Positions 12,174 to 29,760 of a stretch of DNA of 64,000 nucleotides are shown here, one piece after another. The stretch is taken from positions 3,302,036 through 3,366,035 of the forward strand of contig CP060501.1 of NCBI GenBank assembly GCA_024760545.1. Reading direction: 5' to 3'. A program made the translations under genes and the position numbers. This DNA comes from Nitrospira sp. Its GTDB lineage: Bacteria; Nitrospirota; Nitrospiria; Nitrospirales; Nitrospiraceae. The notes under the pieces are model-generated. The model did no database searches, was not told the origin of the DNA, and saw only the letters and a program-made list of their open reading frames with translations. Positions within the stretch are counted from its first letter, which is position 1. Every line of letters begins with the position of its first letter.

Positions 12174-12843
<670 letters not shown>

Positions 12844-12901: not shown

Positions 12902-14311
12902 ATGAACGTGCGTGAGGTGTTGGAGTTCGCCAAGAAGCACAGAGTGCAGATGGTGGACTTGAAATTCGTCGATCTGCCGGGCGTGTGGCAACATATGACG
13001 ATCCCCGTGAGCGAACTGACCGAGACGTTGTTCAAGGACGGTTCCGGCTTGGATGGATCATCCATTCGCGGCTGGAAGGCCATCAACAACAGCGACTTGT
13101 TGGTAGTGCCTGACCCGGCGACGGCCTGCTTGGATCCCTTTACCGCGGTGCCGACACTCAGCATGACCGGCAACGTCGTGGACCCGATTTCCCGCGAAAA
13201 TTACGACCGCGATCCCAGATTCATCGCTCAGAAGGCCGAGCGGTATCTTCAAAGCACCAAGATCGGGGACAGTTCATTCTGGGGCCCGGAAGCCGAATTT
13301 TTCATCTTCGACCATGCCCGATACGATCAGAACAGCCACAGCGGCTTCTATTATTTGGATTCTGAGGAAGGCGCATGGAACATGGGGCAAGAGGGGCTCA
13401 ACCTCGGCGGTAAGATCCGCCACAAGCAAGGGTATTTCCCCGTGGCTCCCGCAGATACCCAACAAGATATCCGAAGCGAAATGGTCCTTGAAATGGAAAA
13501 GGTCGGCATCGTGGTGGAAAAGCACCATCACGAGACGGCCTCGGCCGGGCAGGCCGAGATCGATATTCGATTTGATTCCCTCTTACGGACTGCGGACAAG
13601 ATGATGATGTACAAGTACATCGTCAAAAACGTGGCCCGTCGACATGGGAAGACGGCGACGTTCATGCCGAAACCGCTGTTCAATGATGCGGGATCCGGAA
13701 TGCACACGCACCAGAGTATTTGGAATGATGGAAAACCACTCTTTGCCGGGAAGGATTATGCCGGCATTTCACAGCTCTGTTTATACTATATCGGCGGCAT
13801 CCTGAAACATGCGCCGGCATTGGCGGCGTTTACCAACCCGACGACGAATTCCTACAAACGCATCACCCCTGGATTCGAAGCTCCCGTGCTGCTGGCCTAT
13901 TCCAGTCGGAATCGATCGGCCGGCATCCGTATTCCGATGTACTCCCCGAGTCCGAAAGCCAAGCGGATCGAGGTGCGGTTTCCGGACCCGTCCTGCAATC
14001 CGTATTTGGCGTTCTCCGCGATGCTCATGGCGGGGCTTGACGGCATCCAAAACAAGATCAACCCCGGCGAACCGGCCGAAAAAGACCTCTATGATCTCGA
14101 TCCCAAAGAGGCCGCCAGTATCCCGACGATGCCCGGGAGCCTTGATGAAGCGATCAGCAGCCTGGAAAAGGATCACCAGTTTCTGCTCAAAGGAGAGGTG
14201 TTTACCGAGGATCTAATCGAAGCCTGGGTCGGCTATAAGCGAAGCAAGGAGATCGATGCGATGCGTTTGCGTCCGCATCCGTATGAGTTTTTCCTCTATT
14301 ACGATGTGTAG
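12902..14311 (+). CDS. glnA: Glutamine synthetase type I (GSI-beta class)
   Basis: GlnA makes glutamine from glutamate, ammonia and ATP as a dodecamer. The 469-residue protein has the beta-grasp domain ([12 protein letters not shown] near 50), the catalytic signature ([10 protein letters not shown], near 125), the ATP-binding [18 protein letters not shown] region, NRSAGIRIP and the Glu-flap. [11 protein letters not shown] puts a tyrosine at exactly residue 397, the adenylylation site of enteric GS, so this is an adenylylatable form. It has a strong ribosome binding site (AAAGGAGGAAGGG). Partners in this window are PII upstream and the GlnE-like pair at 25694-29760. Confidence 0.97.
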
Positions 14312-15881: not shown

Positions 15882-16499
15882 TTACTCGACGGAGTGGCCT
15901 TCCAGGAACACCGCTTGTTCCAAGGTGCGGAAGAACTGCTGGTAGGGAAGGGGATCCTCAACGGCGCGAAGGTAAAACTGAGCGCTGGCTCGGACGACGA
16001 GCTGCGAATCGTTGCGCTTACGGACGGTGACTGTGAAACGAACCAGATTACTGCGGTGATCGAACGAGCCCCACGTCCGGTCATGACGGTTGAGAACGAG
16101 TAAGGCATCGGGTTGATACAGCAGATAGCTCAGGTCGACACCATAAATCTGCTCATTCTCGACGTATTTCTTTCCTGAGACGACGCCCAGTTCTTCATCG
16201 AGCACCTCTACTTTAAAATCCAAATCCTGCAGAGATGAAACGATTGTTGCCAACATCCTACGCTGATCCACGGTATCAAACACACGCGATTGGGCGGCGC
16301 GAATTTTGACCTGGCTTTCTTCGGAAAGCCAGATTTGCTCGTGCGAGTCCCACTGGTTGACATGCCGCAATTCGTAGGGTGTTGGGCATCCCTGTAACAG
16401 CAGGCAGAGGCCGACAAAGAGGCAGGGGCTCAGCCGCCTCGATCCTGCAAGAGACAAGGTGTGTTCATCACGGTTCCTCTGGTGAGAGACCATATCCAT
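15882..16499 (-). CDS. Lipoprotein, last gene of the four-gene lipoprotein operon
   Basis: The 205-residue product has a hydrophobic segment and lipobox LLLQGC, with Cys38 as the likely lipidated residue; a long polar stretch precedes it, so the real start may be further in. The mature domain carries the pattern shared with the next two genes: residues ending in (S/T)RVFDTVDQRRMLATIVSSLQDLDFKVE and a closing PxxYQQFFRTLEQAVFLE. Its ATG overlaps the TAA of the preceding gene (TAATG). I do not recognise a named family with certainty; proteins of this kind are often annotated as hypothetical lipoproteins of outer-membrane or secretion loci. Confidence 0.75.
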   Translation of the reverse strand: MDMVSHQRNRDEHTLSLAGSRRLSPCLFVGLCLLLQGCPTPYELRHVNQWDSHEQIWLSEESQVKIRAAQSRVFDTVDQRRMLATIVSSLQDLDFKVEVLDEELGVVSGKKYVENEQIYGVDLSYLLYQPDALLVLNRHDRTWGSFDHRSNLVRFTVTVRKRNDSQLVVRASAQFYLRAVEDPLPYQQFFRTLEQAVFLEGHSVE

Positions 16500-16936
16500 T
16501 AATTCTTAGTGACAAAGAGAGACCGTTCCAGTGTGGCGAAGAAATTCTGGTACACCTTGGGATCTTCGACGGGTTTGTTGTTGTAGATGGCATTCGCGCG
16601 AATCATCATACGACCTTCGGCTTCTGAGCGTACCGTGACGGTCACACCCACGACGTCGTAGAAGTTCGGTTCGGCGAAACGCGCAGCGGTCACCAGCCCC
16701 AAAGGCTCATTGGCTCGCTCGATGATGAAACCCAAGTCCTGCAACGCCGCAATGACGCCGCGCATGGCCATTTGGCGATCCTTTATGTCGAAGGACCGAG
16801 TTTGCATACTCCGGATCTTCATCTGCGCCTCAGTCGGCGCCAGCAGATTCTGACTGGGCTGCGGAACGGCGCAGCCTTGCAGGATGACAAGTATGGCGGC
16901 GCCAATGATTCCTGCCACATTCGCTGACTTCATCAT
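16499..16936 (-). CDS. Lipoprotein paralog, third gene of the lipoprotein operon
   Basis: A 145-residue lipoprotein: signal MMKSANVAGIIGAAILVILQGCAV with lipobox ILQGC. The body repeats the family pattern: MQTRSFDIKDRQMAMRGVIAALQDLGFIIE in the middle and a closing DPKVYQNFFATLERSLFV. It is the shortest of the three related genes and keeps only the core domain. GAGG lies in front of the ATG at 16936; the longer reading from 16993 would run into the previous gene's 3' end and is rejected. Function unknown. Confidence 0.8.
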   Translation of the reverse strand: MMKSANVAGIIGAAILVILQGCAVPQPSQNLLAPTEAQMKIRSMQTRSFDIKDRQMAMRGVIAALQDLGFIIERANEPLGLVTAARFAEPNFYDVVGVTVTVRSEAEGRMMIRANAIYNNKPVEDPKVYQNFFATLERSLFVTKN

Positions 16937-16946
16937 TACCTCGCGC

Positions 16947-17558
16947 TCAGAGAGCAAATGCTTCCAGAAAGACAGCTTTTGACAATTTAGCAAAGAAGGT
17001 CTGGTACATCACGGGGTCGCGTAGCATTTCCATCCGTTGTTCGCCAGGTGGAATGCCCTGACGGCCGGCCAACCCTTCTCCCTTCCACACGACCCGGTAG
17101 AACACGACTCTGACTTCCTGGCGCGTGGCCTCGGAATTCACCGGTCTCGTGACCAGCGCGGCGGCGATTTTTTGATGCAGGTCCACGGGCATTACGATAG
17201 GAGGCTGTTGGACGAATACCAGCGGAGTGCTCAGGAGAAAGACGAAAAAGCGAGCGATGTCCTGGCCATATTCTCGAGCACTTCGTTCTTTCGCCGCTCT
17301 TAAAAATCCAACTTCGCGCACGCTTTCTTCAACCTGGAAACCAAGATCCTGCAGGACAGCCGCTGAGGCGGACAATAACTCCGCTTCATCCTTAGTCTCG
17401 AAGAGGCGGGTTTGCATGGCCCGGTTGGCTGCGCTCTCAGGTTTCAGCTGGAACAGTTCGTCCGGTTGTGTATGAGTCACACACCCTACGAACAGGCTCG
17501 ACATGGCAAGATATGTCACCGCCAGAAGTATTCGCTGAGCCACAGATCCGCCATGCAT
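16947..17558 (-). CDS. Lipoprotein paralog, second gene of the lipoprotein operon
   Basis: A 203-residue lipoprotein with signal AQRILLAVTYLAMSSLFVGC (lipid on Cys). It shows the family core MQTRLFETKDEAELLSASAAVLQDLGFQVE, an inserted hydrophobic stretch (FFVFLLSTPLVFVQQPP, about residues 100-118) that could be a second membrane contact, and the same ending PVMYQTFFAKLSKAVFLE. The start at 17558 touches the preceding gene's stop (17560). The in-frame extension to 17696 overlaps that gene and is rejected. Function unknown. Confidence 0.78.
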   Translation of the reverse strand: MHGGSVAQRILLAVTYLAMSSLFVGCVTHTQPDELFQLKPESAANRAMQTRLFETKDEAELLSASAAVLQDLGFQVEESVREVGFLRAAKERSAREYGQDIARFFVFLLSTPLVFVQQPPIVMPVDLHQKIAAALVTRPVNSEATRQEVRVVFYRVVWKGEGLAGRQGIPPGEQRMEMLRDPVMYQTFFAKLSKAVFLEAFAL

Positions 17559-17559
17559 G

Positions 17560-17952
17560 CTAGAACTGGGTGGCGTTGTAGGCAAAGTCACGGACCTTCT
17601 TCTCTTCGTCGTACTTGATGATGATCGTGAGAGTCCGTTGGCGTTGGGAACTCGAACTGTCACGTGAGGTGGTGCCAAGAATGATGATGCTCGCAAAGGA
17701 GGAACTGGCCGTGTCGACGCGATCAGTCGAGACCTTGTCGTAGATCCAGACCTCGCGCCGCTTCTCGTCTGTCGTCACGATATTGGGACTCCCCAGCAGT
17801 TCGGCTACCTGAGAGGCAGGCATTCCAACTTTGACCTCGCCCTGCACCTTGCCGACGGTGAGACGGTCTTCCTTAATTTCGGCTTTGTTACTGCCGCAAC
17901 CTATGGTTGCCATGATCAGACAAAGACTCAGAATCGACCATATCGATTTCAT
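17560..17952 (-). CDS. BamE/SmpA-like lipoprotein, first gene of the lipoprotein operon
   Basis: The 130-residue product has a signal with lipobox MATIGC and a mature part with the BamE/SmpA/OmlA-type pattern: VKVGMPASQVAELLGSPNIV followed by EVWIYDK and a beta-rich ending. BamE-fold lipoproteins are small periplasmic-facing modules; this one need not be the true BamE of the barrel assembly machine. The ATG at 17952 has AGGGGA upstream. It is unlike the three downstream paralogs in sequence but shares their operon, with the next gene starting at its stop. Confidence 0.78.
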   Translation of the reverse strand: MKSIWSILSLCLIMATIGCGSNKAEIKEDRLTVGKVQGEVKVGMPASQVAELLGSPNIVTTDEKRREVWIYDKVSTDRVDTASSSFASIIILGTTSRDSSSSQRQRTLTIIIKYDEEKKVRDFAYNATQF

Positions 17953-18166
17953 TGATGGGTTCCCCTTTCTGTCGTCCCAGTGTGGCGCAGACGTGACTCT
18001 GAGCACAGGCTACTGTGCCTGAGGCGAGGTGTCAATGATGGGAAAGTAAGACGAGATAGACCAAGCAATGAGCGGCCGCGTGTCGGCGAATGGGGCTGCG
18101 GCTCATCCTCTTGAAGAAAGATACCCGTTTTCTCACTGCGATCGGGTACACTGCGCGTCACCCATC

Positions 18167-20666: not shown

Positions 20667-20694
20667 TGTTGTGCCCCACTTAATATTTGGACAG
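20667..20694 (+). repeat. Left terminal inverted repeat of the IS
   Basis: A 28-base end that pairs with 21899-21925 with a few mismatches and a one-base length difference. It marks the exact boundary at which the PIN-like gene frame is broken. Confidence 0.75.
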
Positions 20695-20716
20695 CACCAG
20701 AAGTCGGGAGGGAGCA

Positions 20717-21064
20717 ATGGAAACCACGATGAAACCTGGTCAGAATGGTCGAGGGCGACGGCGGCGGTGGAGTGGTGAGCAGAAGCTGGCGGTGTTGCAG
20801 GAGTGGCAGACTGGTGTCCCGCTGGAAGAGATCTGTCGGAAATACGCGGTGAATGCGGCACAGATGTATCGATGGAAGCGCAGTCTGGACCAGGGGCTGA
20901 AGGACTCCGGAGAGATGGTCCCGAAGAATGTGGTGGGTGGGCTCCAGAAGCGCATCGAGGAGCTCGAACGGGCATTAGGCCGGAAGGCCTTAGAGGTCGA
21001 TGTGTTAAAAAAAGCCTTCGAGCTCAAAGGGCTCAAATCACCCGAGGGGATATACGGTGGCTAG
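20717..21064 (+). CDS. IS3-family transposase OrfA
   Basis: The 115-residue OrfA carries the helix-turn-helix that binds the IS ends (WSGEQKLAVLQEWQTGVPLEEICRKY and AAQMYRWKRSL, about residues 18-58) followed by a leucine-zipper-like coiled coil (LQKRIEELERALGRKALEVDVLKKAF). The ATG at 20717 has GGGAGGG in front. Near its end lies the A7 run 21007-21013, where a -1 slip would fuse it to OrfB. Confidence 0.88.
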   Translation: METTMKPGQNGRGRRRRWSGEQKLAVLQEWQTGVPLEEICRKYAVNAAQMYRWKRSLDQGLKDSGEMVPKNVVGGLQKRIEELERALGRKALEVDVLKKAFELKGLKSPEGIYGG

Positions 21065-21912
21065 TCCGCATGACAGGCTGCTCGCTCGCCATGGTCTGCC
21101 GAGTCCTCGGCAAGCCACGGAGTTGGTGGTACTATCGGCGGCGCGCGAAGCATGCGCGTCGACTCCGGCGACCCGACATCGAGCTGCTCATTCAGCACCT
21201 GGTGGCCGGCAGTCCGACCTCTTATGGGTATCGGCGAATTCATGCGTTGCTCAAACGACGTGGGGTGTCGTGCAATCCCAAAACAGTGTGGCGGGTCTTG
21301 CAGCGGCGGGGTTGGCTCTCCACCAGTCGTCATCGCGGGCCACGACTCGGACGACCGCATACCGGTCAGGTACGGGTGGCCGATTCCAATCGGCGCTGGG
21401 CCTCCGATATCACCGGCATTCGGGCATGGGATGGCCGCAAGGGCCGCTTGGCCATCATCATCGACTGTGCAGACCGGATGATCTTGTCCTGGCGCTTTGC
21501 CTCACGCATGACCGCCACGGATCTCGCCGAGATGCTGCGCGAGGCGATCTTCCGACGGTTCGGCGAGACCCGCGCTCAGGCCCAGGGCATCGAGTTCCTC
21601 AGCGACAATGGACCGGAGTACACGTCGCACCGATTCCGGCCGTTCGTCCGTGCGATGGGACTGATCCCCTGTCACACGCCTCGGCGGAGTCCGGAGTCAA
21701 ACGGCCTCGCCGAGGCCTTCTTTGGCAGCTTCAAACGGGATTATGTGTATCAAGCCTGCCTGGAGACGTTAGAGAAAGTGGCGCAGCTGCTACCGGCGTG
21801 GATCGAGCACTACAATCACCAGGCCCCGCACAGCGCGCTGAAGATGCGGTCCCCGGCCGAGTGCTATGCCGAGTGGGTCGTCAAAACCAAAACCCTACCT
21901 GTCCAAAATTAG
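21007..21912 (+). CDS. IS3-family transposase OrfB (made by -1 frameshift)
   Basis: OrfB is the DDE integrase-type catalytic part. It lies in the -1 frame relative to orfA, and the slippery run A AAA AAA at 21007-21013 would give an OrfAB fusion. An ATG at 21070 could give a separate product. Seen: an HTH_21-type region (GYRRIHALLKRRGV), then the catalytic triad in RWASDITGI (D), FLSDNGPEY (D) and SPESNGLAEAFFGSFKRD (E), spaced as in active IS3 transposases. No stop or frameshift breaks it, so the element may be mobile. Confidence 0.88.
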   Translation, partial: KKSLRAQRAQITRGDIRWLVRMTGCSLAMVCRVLGKPRSWWYYRRRAKHARRLRRPDIELLIQHLVAGSPTSYGYRRIHALLKRRGVSCNPKTVWRVLQRRGWLSTSRHRGPRLGRPHTGQVRVADSNRRWASDITGIRAWDGRKGRLAIIIDCADRMILSWRFASRMTATDLAEMLREAIFRRFGETRAQAQGIEFLSDNGPEYTSHRFRPFVRAMGLIPCHTPRRSPESNGLAEAFFGSFKRDYVYQACLETLEKVAQLLPAWIEHYNHQAPHSALKMRSPAECYAEWVVKTKTLPVQN

Positions 21913-21925
21913 ATGGGGCAGTACA
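21899..21925 (+). repeat. Right terminal inverted repeat of the IS
   Basis: A 27-base end complementary to the left repeat. It includes the orfB stop codon (TAG at 21910-21912). Confidence 0.75.
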
Positions 21926-22020
21926 TTTTCTTAGACGGCCCTTCTCTACAGTTCCACCTGTTCGTAACCGATAGAGTAGGCGAGAGCCTATATCGGCGCA
22001 TAACCGAAGGGATATCCACC

Positions 22021-22878
22021 ATGCCATCGGCGAGCGAGTTAGTCCAATCCTGCACCACGGTCTTCACCTTGCCGGAGATGTACATCCGTGTGCGGGATGT
22101 GGTGGACGATCCCGACTCGACCATGGACGATCTCGCCAATGTTCTCAAGTTGGACCCAGCTATTTCGGCCAGGGTGCTCCGCATCGTCAACAGCCCGCTT
22201 TATGGGTTTCCCAAACAGATCGACACGATCACTCGCGCCGTGACGCTTCTCGGGATACAGGCGATCAATGACCTCGTTACGGCGACCACCGTCGGACGCA
22301 CTTTTTCCGGGATGACGGTGCAACTCATGGACGTCCCTCAATTCTGGCGCAAAAGCGTGCTCTGCGCTCTGGTCGCGGGAAAGATCGCCAAATCGTGTGG
22401 TATCGCGGATAGCGAGCGCTTCTTTATCGAAGGCCTGCTGCGCGACATCGGCCACCTTGTCCTGTACGAAGCTGTGCCGCAGCGCGCCCAGTCCGCTCTC
22501 ATCGAAGCAGGGTACCTTGAAACCTCCCTGGCTGAAGTGGAGCAGTCCAACATTGGGTGCGACTTTGCTGAAGTAGGGGCCGAACTCATTCGGTCATGGG
22601 GCATGCCCATGCAGATCGAACAGGCCATCCGTTGCCAGCTGAGTCCGAACGATGCCGGCGAGTACATGCTCCATGCTTCCGTGGTGCATCTAGCCGGTGT
22701 CGTTGCCGACCATGAAGAACTCGAGCCCAGCCGTCGCCCTGCCGTACCGCCGTTCAGCCCTCATGCTGTGACCGCCGCTCGGTTTGTACCGGCCAACCTC
22801 CCCGCATTACTAGAGGAGGCGCACACGCAACTGCAAGAGACGCTGGCGCTCGTTTACCCCCTCGCCCTGGCAGCGTAG
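22021..22878 (+). CDS. HDOD domain protein
   Basis: HDOD proteins are catalytically inactive relatives of HD phosphohydrolases and are used as signalling scaffolds. The 285-residue product has the family pattern LPEMYIRVRDVVDDPDSTMDDLANVLKLDPAISARVLRIVNSPLYGF near the start and AVTLLGIQAINDLV, then GLLRDIGHLVLYEAVP where HD-family metal ligands would be. The start at 22021 is preceded by GAAGGGA; the longer frame from 21913 begins inside the IS end and is an artefact of insertion. No output domain is attached. Confidence 0.88.
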   Translation: MPSASELVQSCTTVFTLPEMYIRVRDVVDDPDSTMDDLANVLKLDPAISARVLRIVNSPLYGFPKQIDTITRAVTLLGIQAINDLVTATTVGRTFSGMTVQLMDVPQFWRKSVLCALVAGKIAKSCGIADSERFFIEGLLRDIGHLVLYEAVPQRAQSALIEAGYLETSLAEVEQSNIGCDFAEVGAELIRSWGMPMQIEQAIRCQLSPNDAGEYMLHASVVHLAGVVADHEELEPSRRPAVPPFSPHAVTAARFVPANLPALLEEAHTQLQETLALVYPLALAA

Positions 22879-25693: not shown

Positions 25694-27973
25694 CTAGAGC
25701 TTTCCGTAGGTCCGCTCGAAGAATTCTTTGGTGAGCCTCATATGCTGTTCGACGTCGGTGTGGAGATGCCGAGCGCCGGCCTCCCAGTCGTCTGTGGCAT
25801 AGCCGACACGACGGGCGAGAAAGATAAATTCATCGGAGTCAACGGGCGGGAGGACACGATCTTTCGCGTTGCCACGGACCATGCGGAGGCCGTCGATGAG
25901 CATGCGGATGAAGAAATAGGCCTTGCGAAGATTCTCGCCATCCTGCCTCGTCACGATCCCACAGTCGACCAAGGCGGCCAGGGCCTGCATGGTGTTGGGG
26001 GTGCGTAGGACGGGGAGCCGATGGCCGTGCATGACTTGAAGGTACTGAACAGCATATTCGATATCGACGATGCCACCCGGACTATGTTTCAGGTTCACGG
26101 TGCCGCGCTCGACCAGTTGCTTCAGCTGCTGACGACGCAAGTCGAGGGCTCCAGGAAGATCCCAGGGATGGCCGCTGTAGACATAACTGTCGCGGTGAGC
26201 TTCGACTCGTTTACCGAGAGCGGCATCGCCGGCCACATGCCGCAGTTTGATCAACGACTGGCGCTCGAATGCGGCGGCAAGGCCCTGATCACTGTAGTAG
26301 TTGGAGATCTCGTCGAAGGGGTTGGTCAGAGAGCCTTTCCCACCATGGGGACGGAGGCGTACGTCCAGGTGAAAGATGCCCTCCTGTTTCGCCTCAATCC
26401 ACTGCAAGAGTTCGTGCCCCAGCCGCTCAAAATATTCGCTGTTCTCGATCGGCTGCTTGCCGCCGGTGCGGCCCGCGTCGCCATATACAAACATCACTTC
26501 AATATCTGAGGCGTAACCGAGTTCCTTGCCGCCGAATTTGCCCAGGCCGAGAACGGTGAATGGACAGGGTTTCTTATTCGGCAATCGCGGCGGGCCATAG
26601 AGTTTGTTCAATTTGGCTTGGCAGTCCTTCAAGCTCCGATCGACGATCACTTCGGCCAGTTGGGTGAGTGCCGCGGAAAAATCAGGGAGAGCGGTGCCAG
26701 GCTCGACGATATGCTTCATATCGATGCGAAACAGCTCGCGATCTTTAAAGCTGTTCAGTGCCGCCTTCCTCTCCTCATCGGTTGCAGCCCGATTCACCAG
26801 ACGATCAAGGTCCTTGCGAAGTGTCGCTCGTGGCGCAATAAGGGGCGCATCTCGATAGTCTTGCAGGAGGGGCAGGAGGTTGCTGTATTGGCGCCGCAGA
26901 AAGTCTTCCCAGAGAAAATCGCTGGCGCCCAGCAGACGGGCGAGCAAGGGGAACGTCTTTTTGTCGCTGAGAAAGGCCAAGGCTTTCTGCTGGGCTTTCC
27001 CTTTCGCCTGGTGCATGGTGAGGTCAAGAAACTGGTCAAACGATTCCAAGGCTTTGGTCGGGTCTGGGGCCCAGGTCAGGGCATGCGTGAACTGCTTAAT
27101 AAGCACGGCCGTCAAGCGTAACTGCTGCTGATCAGCTGCGTCAGTCAGCTTCTGGCCGTGGCGGTTGCGGACATAAAAGCGGTCATGAATCTTGCCATTC
27201 TCGACGTCAAATTGCGCTTTGGAAATGTACACGTTGCGCATCGCGAGGGCGTTGGCGAAGGCGTACAAAAAGGCCGGGGTATCGTCCGACCGGATATCCA
27301 TGACTGTGTCGGTCGGGGATTGGCTGTTGTCGAACGTGATCTGGACCGGATTGAGTAGGCCGCTGAAGGATCCGCGCCGCTTACCCAGTTGTTCAACCAG
27401 CCGCCGGTTCACCGCAAAGCGCGCTTCCTCGAATTGTCCCTTGTCGAGCAACATGATGACCGAGTGGAGTGAGTCTGCCAGGAGATTCTGTTGTTCAATC
27501 CCCAACTCCGCGCCTGATACCGGCAAGACCCGGAACACGTCCACAATCTTTTTTCTGCTCAAACTCGGGCTGCTCTTTGCGCGGACACGTGGTCCGTATC
27601 CTGTCCAATTCGTGCGAGCGGACTGCGGGGCGGTTTTGTCGGCAAACGTATAAATCTGTCCTTCTTCAATGTTCAAGCCGAAAGCTGAAAGCAGGCCGCA
27701 AATAGTGGCGAATTCGGAGAAGTAATCGTACGCCACGATCGTCACCTCAAACCGTTTATCGTGCTGTTCAGCAAAGGCAATTGTGCAGGGATGTTCCGAA
27801 GTCAGCTGTGCCGTCAATCGGATATGTTGGGCGATCGTCGTGGGGTCGAACCGCCGGAAATACTCCTGATCCATGCGGGTGAAGAAATCTTGAAGAGCTT
27901 CTTGCGCTACGTCAGGACACAATGGACGAACTGTGTTGAAGATCGGCCCGAGGTCGGGAGAGCTGATCGGCAT
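25694..27973 (-). CDS. ACT-domain GlnE-like nucleotidyltransferase (half-size adenylyltransferase)
   Basis: A 759-residue protein from the ATG at 27973. About residues 74-110 and 208-290 look like ACT domains; the second (DDTPAFLYAFANALAMRNVYI...DRFYVRN) is very close in style to the glutamine-sensing ACT domains of GlnD. The C-terminal half is GlnE-like: FLWEDFLRRQYSNLLPLL, the nucleotidyltransferase core LGLGKFGGKELGYASDIEV (about 474-492, acidic pair D-x-E), LDVRLRPHGGKGSL, and the following helical domain with HSPGGIVDIEYAVQYLQ. Full GlnE has two such catalytic halves in about 950 residues; here only one is present. It is divergent from a second half-size GlnE. Probable substrate GlnA or PII; inference. 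Confidence 0.82.
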   Translation of the reverse strand: MPISSPDLGPIFNTVRPLCPDVAQEALQDFFTRMDQEYFRRFDPTTIAQHIRLTAQLTSEHPCTIAFAEQHDKRFEVTIVAYDYFSEFATICGLLSAFGLNIEEGQIYTFADKTAPQSARTNWTGYGPRVRAKSSPSLSRKKIVDVFRVLPVSGAELGIEQQNLLADSLHSVIMLLDKGQFEEARFAVNRRLVEQLGKRRGSFSGLLNPVQITFDNSQSPTDTVMDIRSDDTPAFLYAFANALAMRNVYISKAQFDVENGKIHDRFYVRNRHGQKLTDAADQQQLRLTAVLIKQFTHALTWAPDPTKALESFDQFLDLTMHQAKGKAQQKALAFLSDKKTFPLLARLLGASDFLWEDFLRRQYSNLLPLLQDYRDAPLIAPRATLRKDLDRLVNRAATDEERKAALNSFKDRELFRIDMKHIVEPGTALPDFSAALTQLAEVIVDRSLKDCQAKLNKLYGPPRLPNKKPCPFTVLGLGKFGGKELGYASDIEVMFVYGDAGRTGGKQPIENSEYFERLGHELLQWIEAKQEGIFHLDVRLRPHGGKGSLTNPFDEISNYYSDQGLAAAFERQSLIKLRHVAGDAALGKRVEAHRDSYVYSGHPWDLPGALDLRRQQLKQLVERGTVNLKHSPGGIVDIEYAVQYLQVMHGHRLPVLRTPNTMQALAALVDCGIVTRQDGENLRKAYFFIRMLIDGLRMVRGNAKDRVLPPVDSDEFIFLARRVGYATDDWEAGARHLHTDVEQHMRLTKEFFERTYGKL

Positions 27974-28032
27974 GGACTTCAGTATACCCGAATGGGTTTC
28001 ATTGTGCGTAGGGGAGAGTATAATGCCCCGCC
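27974..28032. promoter_or_regulatory. Divergent promoter region of the two GlnE-like genes
   Basis: Only 59 bases separate the two start codons. A perfect TATAAT lies at 28019-28024 on the plus strand, and TATACT lies on the minus strand (27986-27981). Each is so close to its gene that transcription would begin within a few bases of the ATG. Good -35 boxes were not found for either. Confidence 0.4.
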
Positions 28033-29760
28033 ATGACTCAATCATCCATTCCGTTTCCGCCGGCACAGGTTCAACCAACAATTCAGACGACTTCCTCCAA
28101 GCCGGATCCCAGGCCCGTCTTGCTCGCGACCAAGAGAAATGCCGAGGAAGTGCGGGCCATTTTGTTAGCCTATGGTCTGCGTGACCCCGGCCAGGCGGAC
28201 CGCAACCTCAGTGCAATGGCAGGCGACCCGATCCAACGCCGCCGGTTGGCCGACATCCTGCCGCTGTTGTTGGAATCGGTCTCCAGAACGGCTGACCCGG
28301 ATCAGGCGCTGAACCATTGGGAGCGCATGTTGTCGCGTGTCGCTCGTACCACATTTTTCGACTATTTGCACAGCTGGCCGCGCATGCTCGATCTCCTCTG
28401 TGTCATTTTCGGTAATAGCGACGCCTTGACCTTCACCCTGATTCGAGACCCGACGTTGGTGTATTGGCTAGCCGAGGAGGATGTTTTGGCCAGATCGCCG
28501 ACGCGGAATGGGTTGGAGAGCGCGCTTCGCGAGAGCATTGAGCATCTTACGTCCAGCCAATTGAGGTTGGACGCACTGCGCCGGTTTCGGCGGCGGGAAA
28601 TGTTACGGATCGGTGTCCGGGATCTGCTGCGTCTCGCCACGGTACCTCAGACGACGGCATCATTGTCCGATCTGGCCTGTCTGCTCATTCATGCGGCCTA
28701 TGAAATTGTCGACGGTGATCTCAGACAACAGTATGGCCTCCCGATGCACCGAAATCGGCAGGGACGATGGGTGGAAACAAGATTCGCCGTGATCGGGATG
28801 GGCAAGCTCGGTGGCCATGAATTGAATTACAGCTCCGATGTCGATCTGCTCTATATCTATGAGTCCGATGACGGGGAAACCAGGGCCCCGGGAGGCAGGC
28901 GCGCCGCCAAGCCGGCCGGTGTCGGCATTTCCAATGAGGAATATTTTGAGATCCTTGCCCGGGAACTGACGCGAGTGTTGATTGAACCTACCAGGGAAGG
29001 TCATGTCTTTCGGGTCGATCTGCGTTTACGGGCGGAGGGATCTGTCGGCCAGTTAGCACGCTCGATCTCGGGCTATCGGCGATACTATCTCAGACGTGGA
29101 CAAGTCTGGGAACGATTGGCGCTCCTGAAGGCCTCGCCGGTAGCCGGTTCGACACGTGTCGGGAACGCATTCTTAGGTGTGGTGAAGCCTTTTATTTTCG
29201 GGAAGCCTGGAAAGAAGACGAGTTTCGCCGAGGCGCTGCCAGTGGTCCACGAAGTGAGGATTGTCAAAGAGATGATCGACACGAAAATAGCAGACCGTGG
29301 GCACGAGCGGCGTGATGTGAAGCTGGGAACAGGGGGTATCCGGGAGATAGAATTTCTCGTGCAGACAATTCAGGTACTGGCTGGGAGGCGGGTTCCGGCA
29401 CTCCTTGACCGCAGTACCCTTGGTGCTTTGGATCGGTTCGCCCGTCGGAAACTGATTTCGGTGAAAGAACGGGATGATCTGGCAGCAGCGTACCTGTTTC
29501 TTCGGGATGTTGAGCATAAGCTCCAGATGGTCCAGGATCTCCAGACCCATGCCCTTCCGGAAAGCCGGATTGAACTCGAGCGATGTGCGATTCGCTTGGG
29601 GTATGGGTCGGAAGATCGGGATCAGGCGAACGAACGGTTTCGTCAGGATCATCAGCGCCATACAAATATGGTTCACCGCATGTTTCTGTCTTTGTTTTCT
29701 GACCCAGAAACCTCCCCCCTTCTCAAAGCGGCACTCTCAACAGCCGCGGGTAACGCCTAA
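28033..29760 (+). CDS. GlnE-like nucleotidyltransferase, second half-size protein
   Basis: A 575-residue protein with one GlnE catalytic unit. It has the N-terminal helical region (FFDYLHSWPRMLDLLCVIFGNSDAL), the nucleotidyltransferase core VIGMGKLGGHELNYSSDVDLLY (about residues 253-274, acidic D-x-D), FRVDLRLRAEGSVGQLARS, WERLALLKASPVAG, and the helical KLGTGGIREIEFLVQTIQV domain. It is most like the N-terminal (deadenylylating) half of enteric GlnE, whereas its divergent neighbour is more like the adenylylating half. Together they could form a split GlnE. The first 30 residues are Pro/Thr/Ser-rich and disordered-looking. Confidence 0.85.
   Translation: MTQSSIPFPPAQVQPTIQTTSSKPDPRPVLLATKRNAEEVRAILLAYGLRDPGQADRNLSAMAGDPIQRRRLADILPLLLESVSRTADPDQALNHWERMLSRVARTTFFDYLHSWPRMLDLLCVIFGNSDALTFTLIRDPTLVYWLAEEDVLARSPTRNGLESALRESIEHLTSSQLRLDALRRFRRREMLRIGVRDLLRLATVPQTTASLSDLACLLIHAAYEIVDGDLRQQYGLPMHRNRQGRWVETRFAVIGMGKLGGHELNYSSDVDLLYIYESDDGETRAPGGRRAAKPAGVGISNEEYFEILARELTRVLIEPTREGHVFRVDLRLRAEGSVGQLARSISGYRRYYLRRGQVWERLALLKASPVAGSTRVGNAFLGVVKPFIFGKPGKKTSFAEALPVVHEVRIVKEMIDTKIADRGHERRDVKLGTGGIREIEFLVQTIQVLAGRRVPALLDRSTLGALDRFARRKLISVKERDDLAAAYLFLRDVEHKLQMVQDLQTHALPESRIELERCAIRLGYGSEDRDQANERFRQDHQRHTNMVHRMFLSLFSDPETSPLLKAALSTAAGNA

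Follow-up and report, generated by a model that had tools for sequence, protein, structure and literature searches.

We analysed a 64,000-nucleotide stretch of a Nitrospira sp. genome (assembly GCA_024760545.1, contig CP060501.1, positions 3,302,036 to 3,366,035), hereafter called the window, which carries two divergent genes for GlnE-type proteins. GlnE acts in the GlnD-PII-GlnE-GlnA bicyclic cascade, a textbook regulatory circuit. The minus-strand gene, ACT-GlnE (25694..27973, stop codon included), encodes 759 amino acids in the order ACT-ACT-GlnE core-helical domain; it is of the AT-C type and the putative adenylylating half for glutamine synthetase (GS). The plus-strand gene (28033..29760) encodes a short GlnE protein of 575 amino acids with a single core of the AT-N type, the putative deadenylylating half. 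Our analysis favours, with moderate confidence, the reading that the two proteins form a split, GlnD-independent GS adenylylase/deadenylylase whose adenylylating half bears its own ACT sensor, probably for glutamine.

The divergent gene pair

The original prediction, which was made from the sequence of the window, had described two half-size GlnE proteins that diverge from a shared 59-base region, and profile searches and gene-start analysis bore this out. Both proteins contain one GlnE nucleotidyltransferase domain (PF03710) followed by one helical domain (PF08335). In ACT-GlnE these lie at 26201..26944 (6.2e-42) and 25712..26101 (4.3e-17) on the minus strand, and in the short protein at 28396..29175 (6e-60) and 29263..29694 (7.4e-28) on the plus strand. 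'Half-size' is thus correct when cores are counted, one in each protein, though the ACT protein has 759 residues. With the curated NCBIfam equivalog models for bifunctional GlnE, whose cut-offs are 487-724 bits, the two proteins scored no higher than 223 and 338 bits. Such scores are what halves should give, and we regard the window pair as a GlnE variant rather than a plain member of the family.

The start of ACT-GlnE is the ATG at 27973, which is common to its relatives. A 795-residue open reading frame (ORF) with a TTG start at 28081 was dropped as the gene model because the TTG is not conserved; relatives align from residue 37 of this ORF. With the ATG as start, the gap between the genes is exactly 59 bases (27974..28032). 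It contains two outward-facing -10-like blocks, TATACT on the minus strand (27981-27986) and TATAAT on the plus strand (28019-28024), each 7-8 nucleotides before its start codon and both invariant across 14 aligned sequences. A scan of the gap with the sigma-70 consensus flagged neither block and found no promoter. The conservation of the blocks suggests that the gap is a bidirectional promoter giving nearly leaderless transcripts, in which case expression of the writer (adenylylating half) and the eraser (deadenylylating half) would be coupled.

The ACT domains of ACT-GlnE

Of the two GlnE proteins in the window, only the minus-strand one matched an ACT profile (PF24931, 1.8e-6). Several lines of evidence showed that these are GlnD-style domains, as had been claimed from the sequence. 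Positions 616-842 of the GlnD model TIGR01693 matched residues 59-322 of the 795-residue ORF (2.9e-22), and in an HHalign comparison both domains of the pair aligned with the GlnD tandem (probability 99.5, E 5e-23). An AlphaFold2 model of ACT-GlnE (predicted local distance difference test, pLDDT, 86) contains two beta-alpha-beta-beta-alpha ACT folds and one GlnE core. ACT domain 1, supported by the model, structural matches and HHalign, covers residues about 63-173 (27455..27787, minus strand) with a disordered insert at 116-136, and ACT domain 2 covers residues about 210-301 (27071..27346, minus strand). The latter is the best conserved ACT domain, with an omega of about 0.05.

The ACT tandem is considered to be the glutamine sensor of GlnD (PMC3173338). 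In the window protein it is homologous to that tandem, and the nucleotidyltransferase superfamily and the PF08335 helical domain are also common to both enzymes. The pair is C-terminal in GlnD, whereas it is N-terminal here, and the core that follows is GlnE-type instead of GlnD-type. Neither an HD domain nor NTP_transf_2 was matched in ACT-GlnE, and the best TIGR01693 stretch is the ACT tail only.

Structural searches with the ACT region retrieved aspartate kinase (3l76, Z 12.2 over 150 residues), threonine deaminase and CASTOR1 (Z 8.1-9.2). An aspartate in each of the beta1-alpha1 loops (D83 and D231) is invariant in 30 of 30 ACT proteins, which is compatible with the binding of amino-acid ligands by these domains. 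Within the clade that lacks GlnD, the omega of ACT domain 2 was 0.04-0.06, similar to that of the catalytic domain; this domain is under purifying selection as strong as that on the catalytic core. In addition, model residues 7-192 (window about 27398-27955, ACT domain 1 included) resemble a nitrogen-metabolism enzyme, the mycobacterial 180-kDa glutamate dehydrogenase, over its residues 463-616 (9hv0, Z 10.2, 144 residues).

Assignment of the two cores

In Escherichia coli GlnE, AT-C adenylylates and AT-N deadenylylates GS (PMC12409994). To assign the window cores to these types we used trees, motifs and structures. In a tree of 50 cores, the short cores grouped with the N-halves and the ACT-linked cores with the C-halves of canonical GlnE (support 97/94). 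Two actinobacterial GlnE in this tree grouped together and not by half, and they were left out of a tree of 70 cores. In the larger tree every partner core was of the AT-N type (100/99), and the ACT-linked cores formed a single clade (100/100) on the AT-C side, a placement that depends on unrooted trees. The closest sequence neighbours of the short protein are N-halves of canonical single-chain GlnE from other classes of the phylum.

The motifs pointed the same way. AT-N-type cores share ELN[FY]SSD, which continues as [IV]D in the N-halves. Most C-halves have Y[AGS]SDLD, and ACT cores have GYASD-x-E; GYASD or YGSD is the usual reading in AT-C and ACT cores. The AlphaFold2 model of the short protein (pLDDT 90) contains one GlnE core and aligns with Z 43.6 to 1v4a (2.2 A over 425 residues) and Z 39.8 to the other solved E. 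coli half. ACT-GlnE gave Z 40.5 to 1v4a and 38.1 to 3k7d, values by which structure alone cannot tell AT-N from AT-C for its core; the AT-C-side assignment is made because of the trees and of the motif G-Y-[AGS]-S-D as against N-[FY]-S-S-D.

We then examined the catalytic residues. D-x-[DE] and the Asp preceding RLRP are kept in both families, the short protein having D269-x-D271 (28837-28845, plus strand) and ACT-GlnE having D490-x-E492 in SDIEV (26498..26506, minus strand). D-x-E is invariant in ACT-linked cores, and D-x-D was found in all canonical cores in which the motif was read. All ACT proteins compared, 21 of 21 in one set and 30 of 30 in another, keep the catalytic acids, which are invariant in the short family too. 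The second acid of nucleotidyltransferases can be Glu, and the ACT core with its D-x-E is therefore expected to be active.

Compared with E. coli GlnE (1v4a, 3k7d), both window proteins have the same PF03710 core and following PF08335 helical domain, and together they have two unlike cores, one of the AT-N type and one on the AT-C side. They differ in being encoded by two divergent genes instead of one chain, in the GlnD-type ACT tandem and the D-x-E on the AT-C-type half, and in belonging to a genome without GlnD. These results support the proposal that GlnE is split here.

Genome content and the loss of GlnD

The original prediction would have been refuted by a complete GlnE and a GlnD elsewhere in the genome, or by a lack of ACT folds in the models. 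The folds are present, as described above, and we searched the genome with profiles for the two enzymes. The assembly comprises 4.8 Mb in 2 contigs with an estimated completeness of 99.99%. In it, the only GlnE cores and the only PF08335 copies were the two in the window; no full-length or second GlnE was found, and no GlnD above cut-off. One further weak ACT match, in a 727-residue ORF elsewhere, probably belongs to a RelA/SpoT-type protein.

The window also carries the candidate targets. On the plus strand, glnB (12508..12843), the only PII gene found in the genome search, keeps the T-loop tyrosine Y51 (GQEYTIEF), and glnA (12902..14311), for a type I GS, keeps its adenylylation-site tyrosine (14090-14092) in an alignment with solved type I GS. 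Both sites had been noted before and both were found here. The window has no glnD at the position between these two genes where relatives carry it.

Among 59 genomes of relatives, 50 contain the ACT protein, and the short gene adjoins it on the opposite strand wherever the contig reaches. Within the phylum the pair is limited to this class; in the other classes, GlnE was a canonical single chain of about 1040-1100 amino acids in those sampled genomes that were read, with two homologous cores and without the ACT pair. GlnD is present in 28 of the 59 relatives and absent from most of the window's genus. We read the order glnB-glnD-glnA directly in five relatives. By contrast, the window and a relative assembled as a single contig have glnB-glnA with 58-66 bases between the genes. 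On the ACT-GlnE tree one or two losses of GlnD suffice, and the resulting clade comprises 24 sampled genomes, all with the ACT protein. These gene orders indicate an ancestral glnB-glnD-glnA operon from which one large clade of the genus has cleanly lost glnD while retaining the GlnE halves.

The T-loop tyrosine Y51 was unchanged in every GlnD-lacking relative that was read. Such conservation shows that the T-loop is constrained and does not demonstrate modification; we therefore discarded Y51 retention as non-diagnostic for PII modification. Separately, five assemblies of the same order and two of the same family are without a clear ACT-GlnE gene, and some of them at least keep GlnD. It may therefore be that some lineages lost GlnE and others GlnD.

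ACT-GlnE across bacteria

We extended the analysis by scanning 85,000 species genomes for the ACT-GlnE module. It occurs also outside Nitrospirota, in four gene arrangements in total, and the link between ACT domains and core is kept in all of them. Divergent genes are characteristic of this class of Nitrospirota. Tandem genes, AT-N then ACT-AT-C, were found in Entotheonella and a proteobacterial bin. Planctomycetes and a verrucomicrobium have a single chain AT-N-ACT-ACT-AT-C of about 1230-1350 amino acids, and Deltaproteobacteria, Spirochaetes, Fibrobacteres and Omnitrophota have a single chain ACT-ACT-AT-C-AT-N of about 1170-1290 amino acids. The planctomycete and verrucomicrobial chains that we compared with the window (four and one, respectively) have the same ACT-ACT-core, D-x-E and AT-N-type partner, as do six chains from Fibrobacteres and other groups. 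In all of these the parts are fused, in one or the other of two domain orders, unlike the split genes of the window.

An AT-N-type partner core accompanies ACT-AT-C in every case but one incomplete bin; in an Acidobacteria bin the AT-N gene sits on a different contig. No further canonical GlnE was found in the genomes that carry tandem or fused ACT-GlnE. Fusion in both orders, together with the nearly constant AT-N partner, strongly favours a joint function of the two window proteins, their genes encoding one functional enzyme pair.

Two ACT-GlnE contigs, from L122 (labelled Nitrospinota) and L124 (Caldilineae), were not counted as other phyla. They have a Nitrospira-type look and 43-46% identity to the class query, with a divergent pair in L122, and both may be misbinned.

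Proposed mechanism and alternatives

Based on the sequence comparisons above, we infer the activities of the two proteins, their direction, GS as substrate, glutamine as ligand and the physical association of the halves. ACT-GlnE, being AT-C-type, would attach AMP to the GlnA tyrosine, and the short AT-N protein would remove it by phosphorolysis. When glutamine, the presumed ligand of the ACT pair, is plentiful, it would activate the adenylylating half and so shut GlnA down; when it is scarce, the short protein would restore GlnA activity. Their fusion in other phyla makes it probable that the halves function as a pair. Since GlnD is gone, PII uridylylation by GlnD is not part of this circuit; unmodified PII may still modulate the halves through 2-oxoglutarate and ATP/ADP. 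A bypass of PII-UMP had been proposed from the sequence. With neither GlnD nor a second GlnE found, and with a surrounding clade that has lost GlnD throughout but retained the pair, such a PII-UMP-independent mode is close to forced. GS is the likelier target, because both halves are homologous to the halves of GS adenylyltransferase; PII is a possible one, without positive support.

A monocyclic, GlnD-free circuit would follow, in which ACT domains on the GS-modifying enzyme sense glutamine, writer and eraser are separate proteins that share one divergent promoter region, and the two-cycle PII-UMP/GS-AMP cascade has collapsed in a Nitrospira-like clade. We hold the chances of this full circuit to be even. 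Several observations weigh against it or against the assignments beneath it. Most other lineages have GlnD alongside ACT-GlnE (it is kept in 15 of 20 ACT-GlnE genomes sampled across the collection), which means that direct sensing does not always take the place of GlnD; on these counts we rejected an origin of ACT-GlnE as a replacement for GlnD. ACT domain 1 is less constrained than ACT domain 2 in the GlnD-lacking clade (omega 0.07-0.2). Because the tree is unrooted, the ACT core might not be a modified AT-C but a third core of ancient origin, and D-x-E in place of D-x-D could mean a different chemistry. Finally, the structural matches of the ACT region have diverse amino-acid ligands, which bears on glutamine as the ligand.

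This diversity of ligands also favours a different account, in which the split GlnE acts on GlnA, the ACT pair has a structural role or a ligand other than glutamine, and control lies mainly with unmodified PII through 2-oxoglutarate and ATP/ADP. Consistent with it, glnB is kept beside glnA with its T-loop tyrosine unchanged in the GlnD-lacking relatives read, and PII signalling can be fundamentally modification-independent (PMC4285133). However, the tandem is specifically GlnD-like, its second domain changes no faster than the catalytic core in genomes without GlnD, and the ACT-core link persists through four gene arrangements. We consider control by unmodified PII unlikely, if still worth serious attention. 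That the pair instead adenylylates PII at Tyr51, replacing GlnD on PII, seems highly improbable. Both halves group with those of GS adenylyltransferase, the pair is the genome's only GlnE while GlnA keeps its adenylylation-site tyrosine, and the pair also occurs in relatives that still have GlnD. Actinobacterial GlnD does adenylylate PII (PMC4285133), and the D-x-E deviates from canonical GS adenylyltransferase cores; the retained Y51 in GlnD-lacking relatives fits as well, but it counts for little because PII proteins without known modification exist. The D-x-E, together with the separate fates that separate genes allow, might also suggest that only one of the two proteins, ACT or short, is an active enzyme and the other a regulatory pseudoenzyme. 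Since neither family shows any change in the catalytic acids, and since both genes are kept wherever contigs permit checking, we judge this the least probable account of all.

Glutamine also stimulates the GlnE of E. coli, and a direct glutamine response alone is therefore not new. What would be new in the preferred reading, a split GS adenylylase/deadenylylase with its own sensor, is that the adenylylating half bears a GlnD-type ACT sensor, that GlnE is split and that GlnD is lacking. Searches of the open-access literature turned up no account of ACT domains on GlnE, nor of the fused ACT-GlnE chains of other phyla, most subscription journals lying outside the search. The glutamine sensor of the upper cycle has seemingly moved onto the enzyme of the lower cycle, and the upper cycle was then dropped in one nitrifier-like clade, which makes testable what the upper cycle adds. 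With writer and eraser naturally separate, each in a smaller protein, experiments would also gain access to activities that are entangled in the single chain of E. coli, with the single-chain versions of the ACT-GlnE module in other phyla as matched comparisons.

Other features of the window

Elsewhere in the window, two overlapping transposase-like frames of the IS3 type (orfA/orfB) occupy 20687-21912, directly upstream of an HDOD-like gene (21913-22878). On the minus strand, four small lipoprotein-like genes stand in a row at 15882-18006, some of them alike by eye.

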